Virus record (IMG/VR): IMGVR_UViG_3300029448_000039
Coordinates: 1 to 58,272 of that record
Source of the DNA: a virus
DNA length: 58,272 bases
Reading direction: 5' to 3' (one strand)
Position 1 is the stretch's first letter. Each line of letters starts with the position of its first letter. The notes below the pieces were generated by a model that searched no databases, was not told the DNA's origin, and saw only the letters and a program-made list of their open reading frames with translations. The position numbers were made by a program, and so were the translations under genes. Below, piece after piece: positions 5,162 to 25,341 of this stretch.

Positions 5162-5624
5162 TTGGCATTGGTTTTTTGGCATATATGTTTATGTAGCTTT
5201 GTTTTTATTGCTTCTTAACGTATACAGTAATGCAGATGAACTACTATTTAAATTTAAAAGTCCTAGCTTTTCAGGTCTTAACACTTCTTCACATTACTTA
5301 ACAATTGATTCACAAGAAGCAAGCAGAAGGCAAGCATTAAAAGATGAAATACAAGCATATCAAGATGATTTAGAAAGAGATGCTAGTAATACTACACTTG
5401 CCAGATTTATCAGAAACTTAGAATCTCGCATATATGCACAGTTATCTAGACAAATGGTAGAGCAACTATTCGGAGAAACACCACAAACATCAGGTAAACT
5501 AGAGCTAGAGGGAAATACAATAGAATATAATGTAGAGGAAGATGAACTTATTACACTTACGATTACATCAGAAGATGGTAGCCAAACTACTATATCCGTT
5601 CCTATTGGTGATTTTACTTTCTAG
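5145..5624 (+). CDS. csgF: Curli assembly factor CsgF-like
   Basis: A 159-residue exported protein. After an N-terminal signal (hydrophobic to about residue 30) comes LLFKFKSPSFSG, the counterpart of the N-terminal CsgF segment that plugs into the CsgG pore. The C-terminal half has the family's helical region (LESRIYAQLSRQMVEQLF) followed by beta strands ending in TISVPIGDF. In bacteria CsgF couples curlin secretion to nucleation at the cell surface. It directly precedes a csgG-like gene, as partners would. No CsgE is present. Confidence 0.85.
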   Translation: MRMKSNWHWFFGIYVYVALFLLLLNVYSNADELLFKFKSPSFSGLNTSSHYLTIDSQEASRRQALKDEIQAYQDDLERDASNTTLARFIRNLESRIYAQLSRQMVEQLFGETPQTSGKLELEGNTIEYNVEEDELITLTITSEDGSQTTISVPIGDFTF

Positions 5625-6375
5625 TTGTGCATCTAAAAATATGCTCGAAGGTGGCGGTGTACCAAACATTGTTATCAAAAATACATCTATATTAGAGTTG
5701 CAATCTGAAGAATTAAAAAATATAAAACCTGTAAAGCAAAAGCCTGTAGTAGCTATTTATCCTAATAGTTTTGTTGATTACACAGGACAGAGGAAAAGTA
5801 ATGGTCAATTTGCTTTATTTAGCACAGCAATAACACAAGCTCCAGATGCCTTTTTAATTCGCGCATTAAAGCATAGTGGAAATGGTAAGTTTTGGACAGT
5901 TGTAGAGCGTGTAGGATTAGATTCTTTGACTAAAGAAAGGCAAATTATAAGGTCAACAAGAGATTCTTTTGAAGAAGATAGCACTGTAAAACCTTTGATA
6001 TTTGCTGGACTTTTGATGCAAGGAGGTGTATTGAGTTATGATACTAATATATTATCTGGCGGTGCAGGTGCTAGATATTTAGGTATCGGCAGTAGTACAC
6101 AGTACCGAGAAGATCTAATAACAGTTAGTTTAAGATTAGTTTCTGTATCTACTGGTGAAATACTAATAGAAACTTCTGCACAAAAGAGTCTTTTGAGTGT
6201 TGCTATATCACAAGATATTTTTAGATTTTTGGATGAAGGACAAAGATTGATAGAGGTAGAAAATGGTAAAGCTCAAAATGAATCAACAAGTCTAGTATTA
6301 CAATTAGCAATAGAAGAATGTGTATTAGATATTATAAAACAAGGTATACAAAAAGGATACTGGAAATATGAATAA
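5575..6375 (+). CDS. csgG: Curli secretion channel lipoprotein CsgG-like
   Basis: Outer-membrane lipoprotein that forms the nonameric curli export pore. From the ATG at 5575 the lipoprotein signal ends LLSSC with Cys18 as lipidation site; an ATG at 5542 would add 11 residues ahead of the signal. Conserved CsgG blocks are clear: the STAITQAPDAFLIRALK region, a pore-loop region, SGGAGARYLGIG with the following strand, and SVSTGEILIETSAQKS. Length matches E. coli CsgG. The gene overlaps csgF, and its end overlaps the curlin-like gene, so all three are probably made from one message. Confidence 0.92.
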   Translation: MVAKLLYPFLLVILLSSCASKNMLEGGGVPNIVIKNTSILELQSEELKNIKPVKQKPVVAIYPNSFVDYTGQRKSNGQFALFSTAITQAPDAFLIRALKHSGNGKFWTVVERVGLDSLTKERQIIRSTRDSFEEDSTVKPLIFAGLLMQGGVLSYDTNILSGGAGARYLGIGSSTQYREDLITVSLRLVSVSTGEILIETSAQKSLLSVAISQDIFRFLDEGQRLIEVENGKAQNESTSLVLQLAIEECVLDIIKQGIQKGYWKYE

Positions 6376-7102
6376 TAATTATAACAAAATGATTTATGGT
6401 ACTGTAATGCTTGCGTTTTTGTTTGCATATAGTTTGTCTTATTCTGATGATAATGAAATCTATGTAGATCAAGTAGGTGCAACAGCAAATATAGATTTAG
6501 AGCAGTTAGGTTCTGGAAACATTATAGGTGGTTTAAACAGTGCACATGGATCTATGAATCCATTTGATTTAGATGGTGCTACGATGACATTAGATGTCAA
6601 TCAAATTGGAAACAACAACAAAATGCTTGGTGACATTAATGCAGATACGTTTACTGGCATCTTTGACTTTGATGGTGATACTAACTCGTATACTATTCAA
6701 GTTGATCCCGGAAACGCTAATTCGGCAGACAACGCAAATGTAAATGTGAACGTGGATGGTAGTACAAATACCATGTCATTAGATTTGGCTACGAATGCTT
6801 TATCTAGTGGTGCAGATATAGACACTATAGTTCAAGGTTCAAGCAATACTGTTCATATTGATTTAGATGTAGATTCAGGTACAAATTATATTGATTTGGA
6901 CGGGGACAGTAACACTGTTGACTATAATGGAGATGGATATGCAGGTGTTTACTTTAAATTAGAACATGATGGATCAACAAGGAGTTTTGACATTGATCAA
7001 CAATCTACGCAAGACAATGATTGGCTGCGCGTACTTAGCAATGGTTCTGGTGGCAGCGTTTGCATTAATCAGTCGGACCAAGGTACTAGCACAAGTTGTT
7101 GA
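6368..7102 (+). CDS. Secreted curlin-repeat protein (CsgA/CsgB-like)
   Basis: A 244-residue protein with a signal peptide (hydrophobic to about residue 26) followed by Asn/Asp/Gly/Gln-rich repeats. Curlin-type Q-x-G-x-x-N units appear early (DQVGATAN, EQLGSGN, NQIGNNN) and then loosen into Asp/Asn-rich beta repeats. Such repeats form stacked beta-strand amyloid in CsgA/CsgB. Its place right after csgG makes it the likely cargo of the pore. Two Cys near the C terminus are unusual for a curlin. Fibre formation is inferred. Confidence 0.7.
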   Translation: MNNNYNKMIYGTVMLAFLFAYSLSYSDDNEIYVDQVGATANIDLEQLGSGNIIGGLNSAHGSMNPFDLDGATMTLDVNQIGNNNKMLGDINADTFTGIFDFDGDTNSYTIQVDPGNANSADNANVNVNVDGSTNTMSLDLATNALSSGADIDTIVQGSSNTVHIDLDVDSGTNYIDLDGDSNTVDYNGDGYAGVYFKLEHDGSTRSFDIDQQSTQDNDWLRVLSNGSGGSVCINQSDQGTSTSC

Positions 7103-8126
7103 TATAGGAAGCATTACAGAACTAAACGGAATTACTAGAGTTGTAAGAGATAAACCATACGAAAGTGCTATAGACTTTTCTTTGAACTCTATGGATCGCC
7201 TAGAAACTGCAAAAGGCAGAATGGGTGTTACATTTAGAGATGAAACTACAATACGACTTACAGAGCATTCTAATGTCATTATAGACGAGTTTGTTTTTGA
7301 TCCTAACCCTAGTAAGTCTAGTATGGCTTTAAACTTTGTAAAGGGCACCGGTAGGTTTATATCAAGCAAAAAGCCACGCATTCCTAAAGATAACATTACA
7401 ATTAGAACTCATTCTGCTGTAGTGGGCATAAGAGGCACAGACTTCACAATCACTGTAAAAGAAACAGGCGAGTCTTTAATAATTTTATTGCCTGACGAAA
7501 CAGGCGAAGCAAGTGGTGAAATTATAGTTTATACAGCTTTAGGTGAAGTAGTTCTTAACAAACCCTATGAGGCTACTACAGTATATAACTTAGAAAGTTC
7601 TCCAACTCCTTCGGTAATCTTAGATTTAACCTTAAATCAAATTGACAATATGCTTATAGTAAATCCTCCGCAAGAAAAAGAAACAGGAACCGATGAAGGA
7701 AATACATCTAGCTCTGCAAATATATTAGATACAGATTTTCTTGAGTTTGATGAACTAGAGCAAGATGCTTTAGATGCTGAATCGGAGCTTGAATATACTG
7801 AGCTTGACATTGATTATCTAGCAACTAATTTTTTAGAAGATTTACTTGATGTAATACAAGAAGTAGATGAATTAAGTAAAGCCTCTGGCTCTTTGGGTAA
7901 ACAAGGTGTAGAGGGAACAAGTATTGGTTACGATAGTAACACTCAGATATCTAGTTTTGTTAATGACTCTGAAGTTAAATTAATTAGACAAGTGCAAGAT
8001 AAGTTAGAGCTTAGAGTATCTAAAGATGCAAGCACAGCAATAAGAATTGATCAAGAAGGCAAAGTAAATCAGGTAAGAGTCAATGGAGGAACTGAGTCAT
8101 ATATCAATATTAAGCAAGGCACTTAA
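7017..8126 (+). CDS. Exported FecR-domain protein
   Basis: Starts with a signal sequence (MIGCAYLAMVLVAAFAL) if the ATG at 7017 is used; an upstream ATG at 6966 gives 17 more residues and a deeper overlap with the curlin-like gene. Neither start has a strong ribosome site. A FecR-type domain follows (about residues 35-180) with GVTFRDETTIRLTEHSNV and SAVVGIRGTDFTI strands. The C-terminal half is very acidic and then beta-rich. FecR domains are periplasmic or surface beta structures; the curli context suggests an envelope role for the phage. Confidence 0.7.
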   Translation: MIGCAYLAMVLVAAFALISRTKVLAQVVDIGSITELNGITRVVRDKPYESAIDFSLNSMDRLETAKGRMGVTFRDETTIRLTEHSNVIIDEFVFDPNPSKSSMALNFVKGTGRFISSKKPRIPKDNITIRTHSAVVGIRGTDFTITVKETGESLIILLPDETGEASGEIIVYTALGEVVLNKPYEATTVYNLESSPTPSVILDLTLNQIDNMLIVNPPQEKETGTDEGNTSSSANILDTDFLEFDELEQDALDAESELEYTELDIDYLATNFLEDLLDVIQEVDELSKASGSLGKQGVEGTSIGYDSNTQISSFVNDSEVKLIRQVQDKLELRVSKDASTAIRIDQEGKVNQVRVNGGTESYINIKQGT

Positions 8127-10213: not shown

Positions 10214-10849
10214 TTATCTAACGACATATCCCATAAAGTTATAGCTTTGCCATACTTTAGAGACCTTACCTATCTTTTTTAGTTCTTTTTCTAATTCAGA
10301 TTCTGTCTTACAAAACATAGAATGAGATAATTGTAAGTCTTTGTCTAAAATTTGTTTACTACTAAAGCCTTTTCTTTTTTCCTGTATGTGCAATCTATGT
10401 ATAGCTTGTTGTAAAACAGGATCGTTTAAATATACTTTTTCTGCAATCAACAAGACAGCACCTTCATCTATTTGTTGTTTAAACAGTTTCAAAACTCTTT
10501 TTCTTTTGACATTTCCAAGAAATTGCAGGAAAAACATGCTAATCATCACAGAAATATTGCCATTCCATACAGCACAACTAAAAAAATCTTCAATATCTCC
10601 CTTCCAAAATTTAAAATAATCTTGTTTTTTCATGTCAATTTCATCGACACCGACATAATCGCACTCATTTATCTTAGTCAAGGAGTCCAAAAACCTACCT
10701 GTCGAACATCCAAAGTCTATAACTCTCGACTCAGGATGAGCATATTGATGAGTTATTTGTCTAAATATAGAGTCTAGTGTTGATAAATTAGGTATAGAAA
10801 GTTCTATATGCTTATCAAAGTCTTTAATTTTACTAAAATCAAATTTCAT
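10214..10849 (-). CDS. CmoA-like SAM enzyme (candidate carboxy-SAM synthase)
   Basis: A 211-residue class I SAM-binding protein. It aligns by eye with E. coli CmoA over most of its length: ELSIPNLSTLDSIF against QRSVPGYSNIISMI, SAM motif VIDFGCSTG (43-51), FFLQFL (106-111) against FTLQFL, AEKVYLNDP against SEKFSFEDA, a KRKGFS segment, and C-terminal WQSYNFMG against WFQCFNFGS. CmoA converts SAM plus prephenate to carboxy-SAM. In my ungapped alignment the carboxylate-binding Arg199 of CmoA is Asp171 here, so the reaction is uncertain; a plain methyltransferase is the alternative. It overlaps the upstream methyltransferase gene by 11 bases. Confidence 0.75.
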   Translation of the reverse strand: MKFDFSKIKDFDKHIELSIPNLSTLDSIFRQITHQYAHPESRVIDFGCSTGRFLDSLTKINECDYVGVDEIDMKKQDYFKFWKGDIEDFFSCAVWNGNISVMISMFFLQFLGNVKRKRVLKLFKQQIDEGAVLLIAEKVYLNDPVLQQAIHRLHIQEKRKGFSSKQILDKDLQLSHSMFCKTESELEKELKKIGKVSKVWQSYNFMGYVVR

Positions 10850-12002
10850 TATTATTTACCTTTTGTATTCTTGTTCCTAACCATTCCATGACATTTATTG
10901 ACATTGCGCGACCAACTGCTTCATATCTTTTGGATTTTGGAGCTTGTTCTTTCGGCTTATTTCGATATGGAATTTGCGTATAGTTATCGCTAAACCCTTG
11001 TAATCTCTCGCATTCTACGATTGTGAGCCTTCTGATTCTGTTTTTTGCCATAACACAAGGCTGTCTATTACCTCCTGTCATAGCGTTTAACGTAGGAGAT
11101 ATATTGTTTTTTGTTATTCTGGCATGACCATCTGGTGTATTAGGCTCAAAACACATGACTGCATGTCTATCTCCTGCGGTTAATGAATACATAGCACCAT
11201 CATCTTTTATGCCTGAGCCATTAGATTTTGTATGCGCAGTTTGTAAGGCAATTGGATCTTCAATGCATAACATTGAGTTCTCAGGAGGAGAAAACCTACC
11301 TCTTGCAGGTATAGTTCCAGAAGTTTCATTCTCTTCTAAAAAAGTACCATTCCTATCTAGCTTTCTATAAAGCTCTCTATGCATTTCCTCAGGCTTTCTG
11401 GGATCTTTGCTCCTTTCTTTTCTGCGCGGAGGAGGATTCCCTGACATTGTTTCTTGGTCAAATAATACTTTTGCGCTACTTTTCCAGTCTCCAAGACATC
11501 CGACAACGAAGATACGTCTCCTTCTTTGTGGGATTGCTCTTGGAAATCGTTGTGTTCTGATGTATTGAGTGTCAAGAACCCTGTATGCGAACCCATACCT
11601 GAGTTCTGCCAATGCTCCGAAGAAGGTAGCAAGATCTTTTCCATCGTTAGATGACAAGATTCCGGGGACATTTTCCCAGAGTATCCATTTCGGCTTAATT
11701 CTTTGAGCCAAGCGAATAAACTCAAGTGCGAGATTCCCTCTATCTTCTCCCATGCCTCCTCTAAGTCCTGCGATTGAGAAGGTAGCGCATGGTGTTCCTC
11801 CAACAAGGATGTCTGGTGTGGCTCGCAAGTCTGATCTTTCGATTTGTGTGAAGTCCCCATAATTTTTTACCTCAGGATAATGATAATCAAGCACAGCCGA
11901 TCTAAATGGATCAATCTCAGCTAAACCGAGACATTCAAAACCAAGCGGATGCCATGCAACTCCTACTGATTCTATTCCACTACATATGGATAAATATTTC
12001 AT
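10839..12002 (-). CDS. DNA C5-cytosine methyltransferase with altered motif X
   Basis: A 387-residue C5 methyltransferase with all core blocks: motif I SICSGIES (5-12), motif II EID (29-31), catalytic Cys72 in GGTPCATFS, ENV (110-112), QRRRRIFVVG (159-168), a variable target region of about 150 residues, and RRLTIVECERLQGF (324-337). Motif X normally reads G-N-S; here it is YEAVGRAMS, with Arg365 (codon CGC) in place of Asn. An engineered Asn-to-Lys change at this position in M.MpeI allows use of carboxy-SAM. The next gene is CmoA-like, so carboxymethylation of cytosine is a serious possibility. No cognate restriction enzyme is visible. Confidence 0.93.
   Translation of the reverse strand: MKYLSICSGIESVGVAWHPLGFECLGLAEIDPFRSAVLDYHYPEVKNYGDFTQIERSDLRATPDILVGGTPCATFSIAGLRGGMGEDRGNLALEFIRLAQRIKPKWILWENVPGILSSNDGKDLATFFGALAELRYGFAYRVLDTQYIRTQRFPRAIPQRRRRIFVVGCLGDWKSSAKVLFDQETMSGNPPPRRKERSKDPRKPEEMHRELYRKLDRNGTFLEENETSGTIPARGRFSPPENSMLCIEDPIALQTAHTKSNGSGIKDDGAMYSLTAGDRHAVMCFEPNTPDGHARITKNNISPTLNAMTGGNRQPCVMAKNRIRRLTIVECERLQGFSDNYTQIPYRNKPKEQAPKSKRYEAVGRAMSINVMEWLGTRIQKVNNNEI
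11357..11860 (-). CDS. Nested alternate-frame ORF inside the methyltransferase gene
   Basis: A 167-codon open frame lies wholly inside the methyltransferase gene on the same strand. Its C-terminal part reads SLSDVLETG ... KYYLTKKQCQGILLRAEKKG, a pattern I recall as a recurrent alternate-frame product or separate protein in other phages (YxLSxxACxGILRRAExRGK). That resemblance is the reason to list it; it may be a dual-coding region or simply a by-product of conserved codons. No ribosome site is obvious. Confidence 0.35.
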   Translation of the reverse strand: MGTSHKSKDQTCEPHQTSLLEEHHALPSQSQDLEEAWEKIEGISHLSLFAWLKELSRNGYSGKMSPESCHLTMEKILLPSSEHWQNSGMGSHTGFLTLNTSEHNDFQEQSHKEGDVSSLSDVLETGKVAQKYYLTKKQCQGILLRAEKKGAKIPESLRKCIESFIES

Positions 12003-12200
12003 TTATTTTTGTTTTTTTATAACTAAATCATATTCTAAGGCATTAAAAACCTTCTCTAGAGTGCTAATTTTAGGCTCATGTATTCCTCTTTCCATGCATG
12101 AGAGATAATGTTTAGACATTCCTATAATTTCTCCTAATTGTTCTAAAGTTAATTTTCTATTATGTCTAGCTTCTCTAAGCTCACTACTCCAATTAGTCAT
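12003..12200 (-). CDS. XRE-family regulator
   Basis: A 65-residue single helix-turn-helix protein (LTLEQLGEIIGMSKHYLSCM at about 18-37, then ERGIHEPKISTLEKV). Its size is that of minimal XRE regulators, including controller proteins that accompany methyltransferases. Its stop directly abuts the methyltransferase start, so it may tune that gene. It is also one of two candidate readers of the dispersed palindrome. It overlaps the upstream gene by 4 bases. Confidence 0.85.
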   Translation of the reverse strand: MTNWSSELREARHNRKLTLEQLGEIIGMSKHYLSCMERGIHEPKISTLEKVFNALEYDLVIKKQK

Positions 12201-23266: not shown

Positions 23267-24091
23267 TTAAACATCTTTTTCCAATACCTTCTCCCATTGC
23301 TTGCGTATGTATTCGTTGGCATCCTGAGCATTATTGTATTTGAATCGATCATGATGATTTATTTCTTTCATGTAAAACACATCACTTGCATCATCGCCAG
23401 TGAGTAGGCTTCCATATCCACCCATGTGCTCATGTGCTACACACTCAAGCATCTTGAAGCATACTCGTCTTGAGAATGATGGATTGCCGATAGCGAATGC
23501 CACCCTGCTCATGTCCATATGTTCGTGTGAGTCTTTGACCATGATCATGAATTCATAGCCGAATTTGTTCTGCTTAGTGCACCATCTCGCTTGTAATCTG
23601 ACACGCTTGCCTGATTGCTCAATGTGATTGATAAGGCTTGCGATAGCGATACCGCGATTCATCATCGCTTTGCTCTTCACGAATGCAGGACAAGCAACGT
23701 CCACAATCATATTCACAATAGGCTCGTCATGCTCCTCACTAGGCAATAGCATGTGTTCATCAACACCTGCATTGTATAGAGGTATGATCGGGAACGCTCC
23801 AACTGGCGCAGTCTCCCACACTTCCGCTTGTTCTACACCTGAGTTATCTATCTCATGGGTTAAGCCATGCTCAAGCATATCAACACCTGCCTGCCATCCA
23901 TCTCGCATAAGGTCTCTGGATACTTGCAATGATTTTGAGCCAGTCCATCCTGATGAATCTTTTTTATCTGATGATGTCATGTGCTTTTGAATACGCTTCG
24001 CATTCATCCATGTCTCAAGCTCATGCCATTCTACATTGTATGTATCAACCCTACGTCCATTACGCTTCGTTGTGATTGCTAGATTTTGCAT
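23267..24091 (-). CDS. Conserved protein encoded next to a MoxR/CobS ATPase
   Basis: A 274-residue protein starting at 24091 (AGGAG 8 bases upstream; a longer frame would run into the ATPase gene). It has aromatic/Met-rich segments and a RVRLQARWCTKQNKFGYEFM region. I recall such proteins, sometimes labelled DUF7192, encoded beside phage CobS-like ATPases, where a von Willebrand A partner often sits. I see no clear MIDAS motif. Likely works with the ATPase. Confidence 0.6.
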   Translation of the reverse strand: MQNLAITTKRNGRRVDTYNVEWHELETWMNAKRIQKHMTSSDKKDSSGWTGSKSLQVSRDLMRDGWQAGVDMLEHGLTHEIDNSGVEQAEVWETAPVGAFPIIPLYNAGVDEHMLLPSEEHDEPIVNMIVDVACPAFVKSKAMMNRGIAIASLINHIEQSGKRVRLQARWCTKQNKFGYEFMIMVKDSHEHMDMSRVAFAIGNPSFSRRVCFKMLECVAHEHMGGYGSLLTGDDASDVFYMKEINHHDRFKYNNAQDANEYIRKQWEKVLEKDV

Positions 24092-24120
24092 ATCGTTTGC
24101 TCCTATGTTTAAACAGTTAA

Positions 24121-25341
24121 TTACTTGGATTCCTGAGTGGCTTTCATGCGAGCCTTGCATTCCTTGCGGAGTATGTTCGCATCAGCATCAGTCATACCCT
24201 TGTAAAGCCTCATGTTACGCACCTTGTCAATGTTCATACCTGCCCTGAGTAACATTGCACCCTTGATACTGGCTCGTGGTGAGATGATGTAAGCCATTTT
24301 TTTCTCTTCTGCAATAGCTCGAACAGTGCGCACCTCAGTCACCCACTTGTCATTCTGTGCAATGGCTCGCTCAATCTTCTCGTCATACCGCATGTCAATC
24401 TCAGCGAATCTATCGAGCGTAGCCCCATCGAGCTTGTTTCGCCCAATGTATTGTCTGCTTGCACCATGACCAACAGTGTTGGCTGATGCAATCGCCTTGA
24501 AGTTTTTGTGCTTACGCACCATGCCACAAGGGAATGGAGCTTCCATACCTACTTGAATATCCAATGCCTGATTGAATGACACAAGTGCATTAGGATGTGA
24601 TGCATCCATTTCATCGAATAGGAATACCCCACCATCCTTGAAAGCGCGGTAGAAGTCGGTAGGCTTGTATTCGCCAGTAGCTGTAAGTTGCCCCATCAAT
24701 TGATGCTCCCACTTGACTGCGGATGCTGAGTAGAATGGAAGCTTAAAAGCTTTAGCTATCTGATAGCCGAGTGTAGTTTTACCTGCTCCTGCTCCACCCA
24801 CCAGATACACATTGTCACATGTCATCGTTGTGAGTACATCCTCGAATATCTCATGTGTGATCTCACCAGTGAAGTCCACCTTGCCTGCCTCAGTTTTTAC
24901 CTCAATGGTTCGCATTGATTGCGCCAATTGCTTGAGCTTGCTAATTTGCCTACTAGCTTCACCCATGAATTCCTCTGTCTGACGATCATGTTTACGCTGA
25001 TATTCTCGAATATCTGCTGACATATCCGAAGTGATGTTAGACACAGCCGAAGTGAACGAAGTATCAACATCATTTTTGAATGTCTCAAATTGGTTGTTTA
25101 AACGCTTTTCAGCATCCGATGTATCAACCACTACTTTAGTAGTCTGCACATCACCATCATTCCACAAAGTGACAAGGTCACTAATCGGAGTTGACATTGG
25201 CTTGTTGTACGCTATTGCCAATTGCTTGAGCCTAAGTTCCTGCTCTGCACTGACATTGTCAGCGTTGAGGTTATCACCCAACACTCGTTGTAATTCGCTC
25301 AACGTAGTGCTATTAGTGATTTGAGTTGAATGATTATACAT
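24121..25341 (-). CDS. cobS: MoxR/CobS-type AAA+ ATPase
   Basis: A 406-residue ATPase. The N-terminal 150 residues form a coiled segment; the AAA core has Walker A GGAGAGKT (182-189), Walker B VFLFDEMDA (239-247), a sensor region FKAIASANTVG and an Arg-finger area. CobS is the chelatase ATPase subunit for cobalt insertion, but phage CobS-like genes are more likely remodelling ATPases. The neighbours here (SprT-like protein, conserved partner) suggest a three-gene module. The symbol reflects family resemblance only. Confidence 0.82.
   Translation of the reverse strand: MYNHSTQITNSTTLSELQRVLGDNLNADNVSAEQELRLKQLAIAYNKPMSTPISDLVTLWNDGDVQTTKVVVDTSDAEKRLNNQFETFKNDVDTSFTSAVSNITSDMSADIREYQRKHDRQTEEFMGEASRQISKLKQLAQSMRTIEVKTEAGKVDFTGEITHEIFEDVLTTMTCDNVYLVGGAGAGKTTLGYQIAKAFKLPFYSASAVKWEHQLMGQLTATGEYKPTDFYRAFKDGGVFLFDEMDASHPNALVSFNQALDIQVGMEAPFPCGMVRKHKNFKAIASANTVGHGASRQYIGRNKLDGATLDRFAEIDMRYDEKIERAIAQNDKWVTEVRTVRAIAEEKKMAYIISPRASIKGAMLLRAGMNIDKVRNMRLYKGMTDADANILRKECKARMKATQESK

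Follow-up and report, generated by a model that had tools for sequence, protein, structure and literature searches.

A phage system that places a carboxymethyl group on DNA cytosine was reported in December 2025 for Synechococcus phage S-B43, in which the phage CmoA makes carboxy-SAM (Cx-SAM), CmoX carboxymethylates cytosine in GC sites, and CmoY caps the carboxymethyl group with glycine (PMC12783734). In the crystal structure of CmoX (8YF3), Arg350, located at the place of Asn304 in M.HhaI, contacts the carboxylate of Cx-SAM. Wild-type SpCmoX uses Cx-SAM only and not SAM, and the R350N variant uses neither donor (PMC12783734). For the 5,615 CmoX candidates published with this system, an SPPC motif IV and the Arg at the R350 place were both required (PMC12783734). 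M.MpeI N374K, in which a basic residue at this place in motif X allows use of Cx-SAM, is also cited there (PMC12783734); that enzyme, unlike the one studied here, is engineered, carries Lys and prefers CG sites. In our literature search, which included few subscription papers and no preprints, nothing on carboxymethylcytosine in phage DNA was found besides PMC12783734. The chemistry that had been inferred for the present locus in the earlier note is therefore already published for S-B43.

The methyltransferase and CmoA-like genes of a tailed phage

We analyzed the whole of a 58,272-bp phage record (hereafter, the window). The presence of terminase, portal, head and tail genes indicated that it belongs to a tailed phage. 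Three abutting genes on the minus strand encode a helix-turn-helix (HTH) protein, a C5-cytosine methyltransferase (MTase) and a CmoA-like protein (Table 1). The ORFs of the latter two lie where the earlier note had placed them, and their overlap is 11 bp (10839-10849).

Like the CmoA-CmoX(-CmoY) system of S-B43, the locus has a C5-MTase with a motif X Arg near a CmoA homologue in a phage setting, and CmoY is found in many relatives of the window. Unlike S-B43, the motif IV is GGTPC instead of SPPC, the MTase falls in a separate clade, and the gene order is MTase-CmoA. The MTase aligned with SpCmoX at 28.6% over 168 residues in BLASTP, and the CmoA-like protein was 28% identical to the CmoA of S-B43.

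Elsewhere in the window, an AAA_5 ATPase gene (phrog_249, labeled porphyrin biosynthesis) adjoins a gene for a DUF7192 protein at 23267-25341 on the minus strand. At 5542-8126 on the plus strand, judging from the translations, are ORFs with possible curlin-type repeats and, after them, a putative FecR-like protein.

Table 1. Features of the locus and the basis of their assignment
Feature	Position	Strand	Basis
C5-cytosine MTase of the GGTPC phage family, 387 aa; predicted DNA cytosine carboxymethyltransferase (CmoX-like)	10839..12002	-	PF00145 162.6 bits; motifs X and IV; trees
Codon of Arg365 (place of M.HhaI Asn304 and SpCmoX Arg350)	10908..10910	-	Alignments; position calculated from the gene start at 12002
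Codons of Cys72 (nucleophile) and Ala73	11784..11789	-	Reading of motif IV
CmoA-like protein, 211 aa; predicted carboxy-SAM synthase; 11-bp overlap with the MTase gene	10214..10849	-	Profiles, PDB matches, fold
Codon of Asp171 (place of E. coli CmoA Arg199; Glu188 in SpCmoA)	10337..10339	-	Alignment; position by arithmetic
HTH protein, 65 aa, adjoining the MTase gene on its upstream side; may be a regulator	12003..12200	-	PF01381 4.5e-10
ORF of 167 aa nested in the MTase gene (+1 frame)	11357..11860	-	phrog_16143 3e-7; synonymous shuffles

The MTase belongs to PF00145 (162.6 bits against a Pfam cut-off of 22). The claim that its catalytic motifs are kept was right for the residues Cys72, Glu110-Asn111-Val112 (ENV) and Gln159/Arg161/Arg163 (QxRxR), but beside the nucleophile the PCQ of motif IV is changed to PCA, the motif reading GGTPCATFS in the window. 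In motif X, residue 365 is indeed Arg (YEAVGRAMS), where the family has Asn. Arg365 aligned with Asn304 of M.HhaI, as counted on the alignment, and with Arg350 of SpCmoX in a pairwise MAFFT alignment; the correspondence rests on these two alignments and not on hhalign, which covered the N-terminal half only when the GGTPC family was compared with SpCmoX. The AlphaFold model of the MTase (pLDDT 69.9, no ligand) was poor around the active site, with pLDDT below 50 in the motif IV loop, and could not place Arg365 relative to the donor. In a Foldseek search with this model M.HhaI ranked first and 8YF3 15th, with an rmsd of about 15.

Other residues were compared between relatives of the window MTase with motif X Arg and Asn (Arg-type and Asn-type). 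Among rows with a readable motif IV, residue 73 was Gln in all of the 89 Asn-type ones; of the 72 Arg-type ones, 69 have Ala and 3 have Val. These rows were taken without selection for PCQ; an earlier form of the contrast was dropped as circular because its Asn set had been chosen by PCQ. SpCmoX has Ser at this place. With residues read from the alignment, Arg34 was present in 98% of Arg-type sequences, with Pro in the Asn-type and Cys in the Asn-type sister L404, so that this residue changes on the Arg branch too. Glu361 (four residues before Arg365), Glu94 and Ser368 were considered as marks of Cx-SAM use, the first two being common to the window MTase and SpCmoX. All three were rejected and are regarded as lineage marks, because they are already present in L404.

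The gene after the MTase had been described as CmoA-like, and PDB sequence matches, the best NCBIfam match and the fold all agreed with this. The three PDB sequence matches at E<=10 were all CmoA (E. coli 4gek and 4iwn, and 1im8, deposited as YecO; best 5e-11). The AlphaFold model (pLDDT 90.6) had the same three structures, 1im8, 4gek and 4iwn, as top fold matches (Z 24.0, 23.9 and 23.4), followed by small-molecule methyltransferases at Z 21.7 and lower. The best NCBIfam match was CmoA TIGR00740 (5.8e-18) with 65.4 bits, below the curated cut-off of 193.3; SpCmoA, which was itself assayed, is also under this cut-off with 115.6 bits.

In E. coli CmoA the carboxylate is bound by Arg199 (PMC3663124, PMC4482062), a residue absent from the window protein. 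Asp171 does occupy its place, as the earlier note pointed out as an argument against CmoA function, and a protein with Asp at this clamp might make another acid-bearing analogue of SAM, to be bound by Arg365. We consider such a different donor very improbable. SpCmoA is also acidic at this place (Glu188), yet it makes Cx-SAM, with a kcat of 2.33 per second versus 0.23 per second for E. coli CmoA (PMC12783734), and the equivalent of Glu164 is kept in the window protein as Glu137 by alignment. The loss of Arg199 is therefore no objection, and Asp171 was set aside as an argument against CmoA function. Compared with the E. coli CmoA/CmoB pathway for tRNA cmo5U, the window shares the CmoA fold and probably the synthesis of Cx-SAM, but differs in having Asp171 for Arg199 and, as predicted, DNA cytosine instead of tRNA as the acceptor.

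Association of motif X Arg with CmoA and CmoY

Two scans of viral contigs were made with an MTase query, blind to CmoA: one with P0002 (68 loci) and one with an Asn-led alignment (80 loci, 78 new contigs). Among the 146 loci found in this way, with the motif X class read from the alignment, a CmoA-like gene was present, within the stretch of sequence examined, in 44 of 49 Arg loci and in none of 96 Asn loci; one further locus (L004), counted as X because a base of codon 365 is ambiguous, has CmoA. When at least 1 kb of flank was required on both sides, the counts were 29/32 and 0/63. Fisher tests gave p = 6e-32 for all loci and 2e-21 for those with at least 1-kb flanks, values that overstate the link because the Arg loci form one clade, representing one evolutionary event, and are not independent. 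Duplicate contigs (L001, L002, L006 and L052) and L213, from the same contig as L089, were left out of the counts, and the split ORFs L105/L106 read T at motif X in the alignment. A basic residue next to a CmoA-like gene had been held to be hard to explain by chance, and the blind counts agree. Motif X Arg in the absence of CmoA, which the earlier note would have counted against its reading if common, was not common within the GGTPC family.

C5 MTases are common in phages, with 1098 of 50,697 phage records matching P0002, so the window MTase might simply make 5-methylcytosine with SAM while the CmoA-like protein travels with it and serves some other role, e.g. in host tRNA cmo5U. A 144,243-bp record (L057), in which CmoA adjoins an Asn-type MTase that is the only C5 MTase found there, would fit such a case. 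For the window, however, this explanation is very unlikely: in the GGTPC family CmoA tracks the Arg type and was beside none of the 96 Asn loci, and the same Arg goes with exclusion of SAM in SpCmoX (PMC12783734). Homology of the site to SpCmoX Arg350 and the CmoA context support the reading of the locus as phage DNA carboxymethylation, and by this homology to an assayed system we consider it highly likely that the pair carboxymethylates cytosine in the DNA of the phage.

The contrast with the Asn-type enzymes is seen within the family of the window MTase. The three named phages that head its list of phage matches (41-44% identical) are all Asn-type; members such as those of Caudoviricetes sp. 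ct2os315 and Roseobacter phage CRP-821 differ from the window in their motif X Asn and in the Gln that follows the catalytic Cys, and neither CmoA (0/96 loci) nor CmoY (0/58 flanked loci) is found near this type. Among 66 relatives on bacterial and archaeal genome contigs, 61 were Asn-type, none was Arg-type and 5 were unread or misread, and CmoA was beside none of them. The link between motif X Arg and CmoA is seen again outside this family, in the SpCmoX lineage, where CmoA was near the MTase in 61 of 78 rows, and in L197 (see below).

Clustering of neighbor genes gave CmoA as by far the commonest cluster, beside 80 of 86 Arg and 0 of 89 Asn loci, and CmoY beside 18 and 0; these counts carry selection because the 86 loci include some found via CmoA, and, as for the CmoY and nested-ORF counts below, the classes were assigned by regular expression, by which motif X is misread or missed in some rows. 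Other clusters occurring beside Arg loci only, the largest of them in 30 loci, are farther away and look like shared phage background. A ThyX-like cluster was beside 8 Arg loci. In L084, L067 and L110 the ThyX-like gene, presumably a flavin thymidylate synthase judging from its motifs, is directly downstream of the Arg-type MTase, and in L084 it lies between the MTase and CmoA.

By the regular-expression classes, CmoY was found in 17 of 52 flanked Arg loci, including close relatives of the window (L007-L011), and in none of 58 Asn loci. In L007-L011 the CmoY ligase gene is directly upstream of the MTase, at the place taken by the HTH gene in the window. CmoY is a ligase of the Asn-synthetase type; the 58,272-bp record, which may be incomplete, had no PF00733 match at E<=1 and no match to the CmoY profile. 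With no CmoY found, the pathway may end at plain 5-carboxymethylcytosine, and a near-complete record would mean that the window phage stops at the bare acid.

Origins of the Arg-type enzymes and exceptions to the CmoA rule

Of the two requirements used for the published candidates, the window MTase has the Arg at the R350 place of SpCmoX but not the SPPC motif IV, and would therefore be excluded by that filter. GGTPC is present in the window and in every Arg-type relative of its family with motif IV in the sequence, while the SPPC group (80 sequences, 56 distinct) is separate. A tree was made from 35 representatives with the motif X column removed, one split-ORF row (L105/L106, shown as T) being included. 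The Arg-type GGTPC enzymes formed one clade (15 rows, 100/100) within a 26-row GGTPC clade (100/100) shared with Asn-type phage enzymes, and SpCmoX and its kin (3 rows, 100/100) were placed apart from it. A single clade of all Arg rows was rejected by the AU test (p=0.0002), so that the motif X Arg arose at least twice. Without the long-branch L197 the p value was 0.02, which is only moderately strong support for a separate origin.

The closest point of comparison is the Asn-type L404, whose MTase is 59% identical to that of the window. In the tree it is the sister lineage of the entire Arg clade (20 rows, 100/100, with 89/91 for the Arg clade alone). It has Asn365 and Gln73, and its 32-kb record, possibly a fragment, gave no match to CmoA. 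The state of L404 together with the counts for residue 73 places the gain of Arg365, the loss of Gln73 and the gain of CmoA on one stretch of the tree. The Arg-type GGTPC MTases are very probably a second CmoX-like lineage; what is new here is the lineage, not the chemistry. Within the Arg clade of the window, the MTase of L081 adjoins a CmoA only 25% identical to that of the window.

Five Arg loci of the P0002 scan had no CmoA-like gene (L067, L071, L075, L083 and L110). The contig of L083 ends just past the MTase, and L110 consists of the last 60 residues of an MTase followed by a ThyX-like gene as in L067. L067, L071 and L075 have good flanks and no stand-alone CmoA, and CmoY is present in L071 and L075. 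Weak CmoA-like domains were matched by TIGR00740 inside long reading frames of the L071 record (L211, 5e-8, 1,507 codons) and the L067 record (L212, 7e-7, 1,230 codons). These embedded domains were scored alone because TIGR00740 at E<=1 is loose and also matched 12 of the 14 control genomes. When one of the two domains was searched against the PDB, no CmoA was returned (best E 0.13). The embedded domain might stand in for CmoA in the L067 and L071 records.

CmoA was also found next to MTases of other types. In an SPbeta-like Staphylococcus phage (127,726 bp), CmoA adjoins a Gly-type MTase, the only C5 MTase found there. Staphylococcus phage vB-SscS-F1 (90,130 bp) has CmoA, CmoY and a Gly-type MTase in a row, again with no other C5 MTase found, and L197 has CmoA, a CmoY homologue (2e-79 to SpCmoY) and an Arg-type MTase in a row, as well as a Gly-type MTase. 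In L113, L195, L196, L198 and L302, and also in L197 and L057, CmoA is beside MTases whose motif X carries Gly (YDVVGGVINQ) or Asn (CNGMS). These enzymes have Arg at the fifth position past the catalytic Cys; such an Arg was present in 6 CmoA-linked rows of the Gly and Asn types and in no CmoA-free row, few close CmoA-free relatives of these types having been sampled. These neighbors suggest that the donor may also be bound in other ways, or that the association with CmoA means something else there. Among the 6 examined of 12 CmoA-matching phage records, two unannotated ones (L303 and L304) had no MTase of this family around CmoA.

The nested ORF, the proposed reaction and its meaning

The MTase gene contains a nested ORF in its +1 frame. 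By the regular-expression classes, this frame is open for at least 110 codons in 69/69 Arg-type and 89/89 Asn-type GGTPC genes and in 0/80 SPPC-type genes. Its length was reached by no more than one of 30 synonymous shuffles in each of the 69 Arg-type genes and in 63 of the 89 Asn-type genes, and in all 10 pairs compared the nested peptides aligned better than any shuffled null. No description of it was found in our literature search. Judging from these comparisons of sequence, the nested ORF probably represents a genuine gene that overlaps those of phage C5 MTases, conserved in both Arg-type and Asn-type GGTPC genes and not specific to the carboxymethyl system. As the ORF is clearly constrained, one could imagine that the MTase is a dead or DNA-binding relic whose gene is retained for the overlapping frame. 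This is extremely unlikely: the catalytic residues are present, and because the ORF is conserved in Asn-type genes too, it cannot explain the Arg or the CmoA.

In the carboxymethylation reading that we favor, the CmoA-like enzyme would carboxylate SAM with CO2 from host prephenate to give carboxy-SAM. The MTase would flip the cytosine out, Cys72 would attack C6, and the carboxymethyl group would move from carboxy-SAM to C5, with Arg365 gripping the carboxylate of the donor. We infer that the change from Gln to Ala at residue 73 may give the donor group room. The predicted product is 5-carboxymethylcytosine in the DNA of the phage, where it would keep host restriction enzymes from cutting. Without a CmoY-type ligase the carboxymethyl group may remain bare in the window phage, while in close relatives CmoY probably attaches glycine or another amine to it. 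The window MTase would have derived from an Asn-type phage methyltransferase by the Asn-to-Arg switch of CmoX, separately from CmoX itself.

We lean slightly toward a broader view, in which DNA carboxymethylation of phages evolved several times from C5 methyltransferases: in the published SPPC lineage; in the GGTPC lineage, through the Asn-to-Arg change, acquisition of CmoA and loss of the Gln that follows the catalytic Cys; in the FPC lineage of L197; and perhaps also in the Gly-type enzymes of Staphylococcus phages and in L057, which have no motif X Arg and may use the Arg five residues after the catalytic Cys. If so, a filter for Arg plus SPPC would find only the first of these, and the phage of the window would stop at bare 5-carboxymethylcytosine.

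The result suggests that a second enzyme family came on its own, through the same change of residue, to a DNA modification demonstrated in one phage lineage only. The catalogue of candidates extends past the published SPPC filter, and the enzymes may offer other target sites. Some phages may carry a bare acid on their DNA instead of a glycine amide. The window enzyme and its Asn-type sister L404 form a natural before-and-after pair for asking which residues make a methyltransferase a carboxymethyltransferase.
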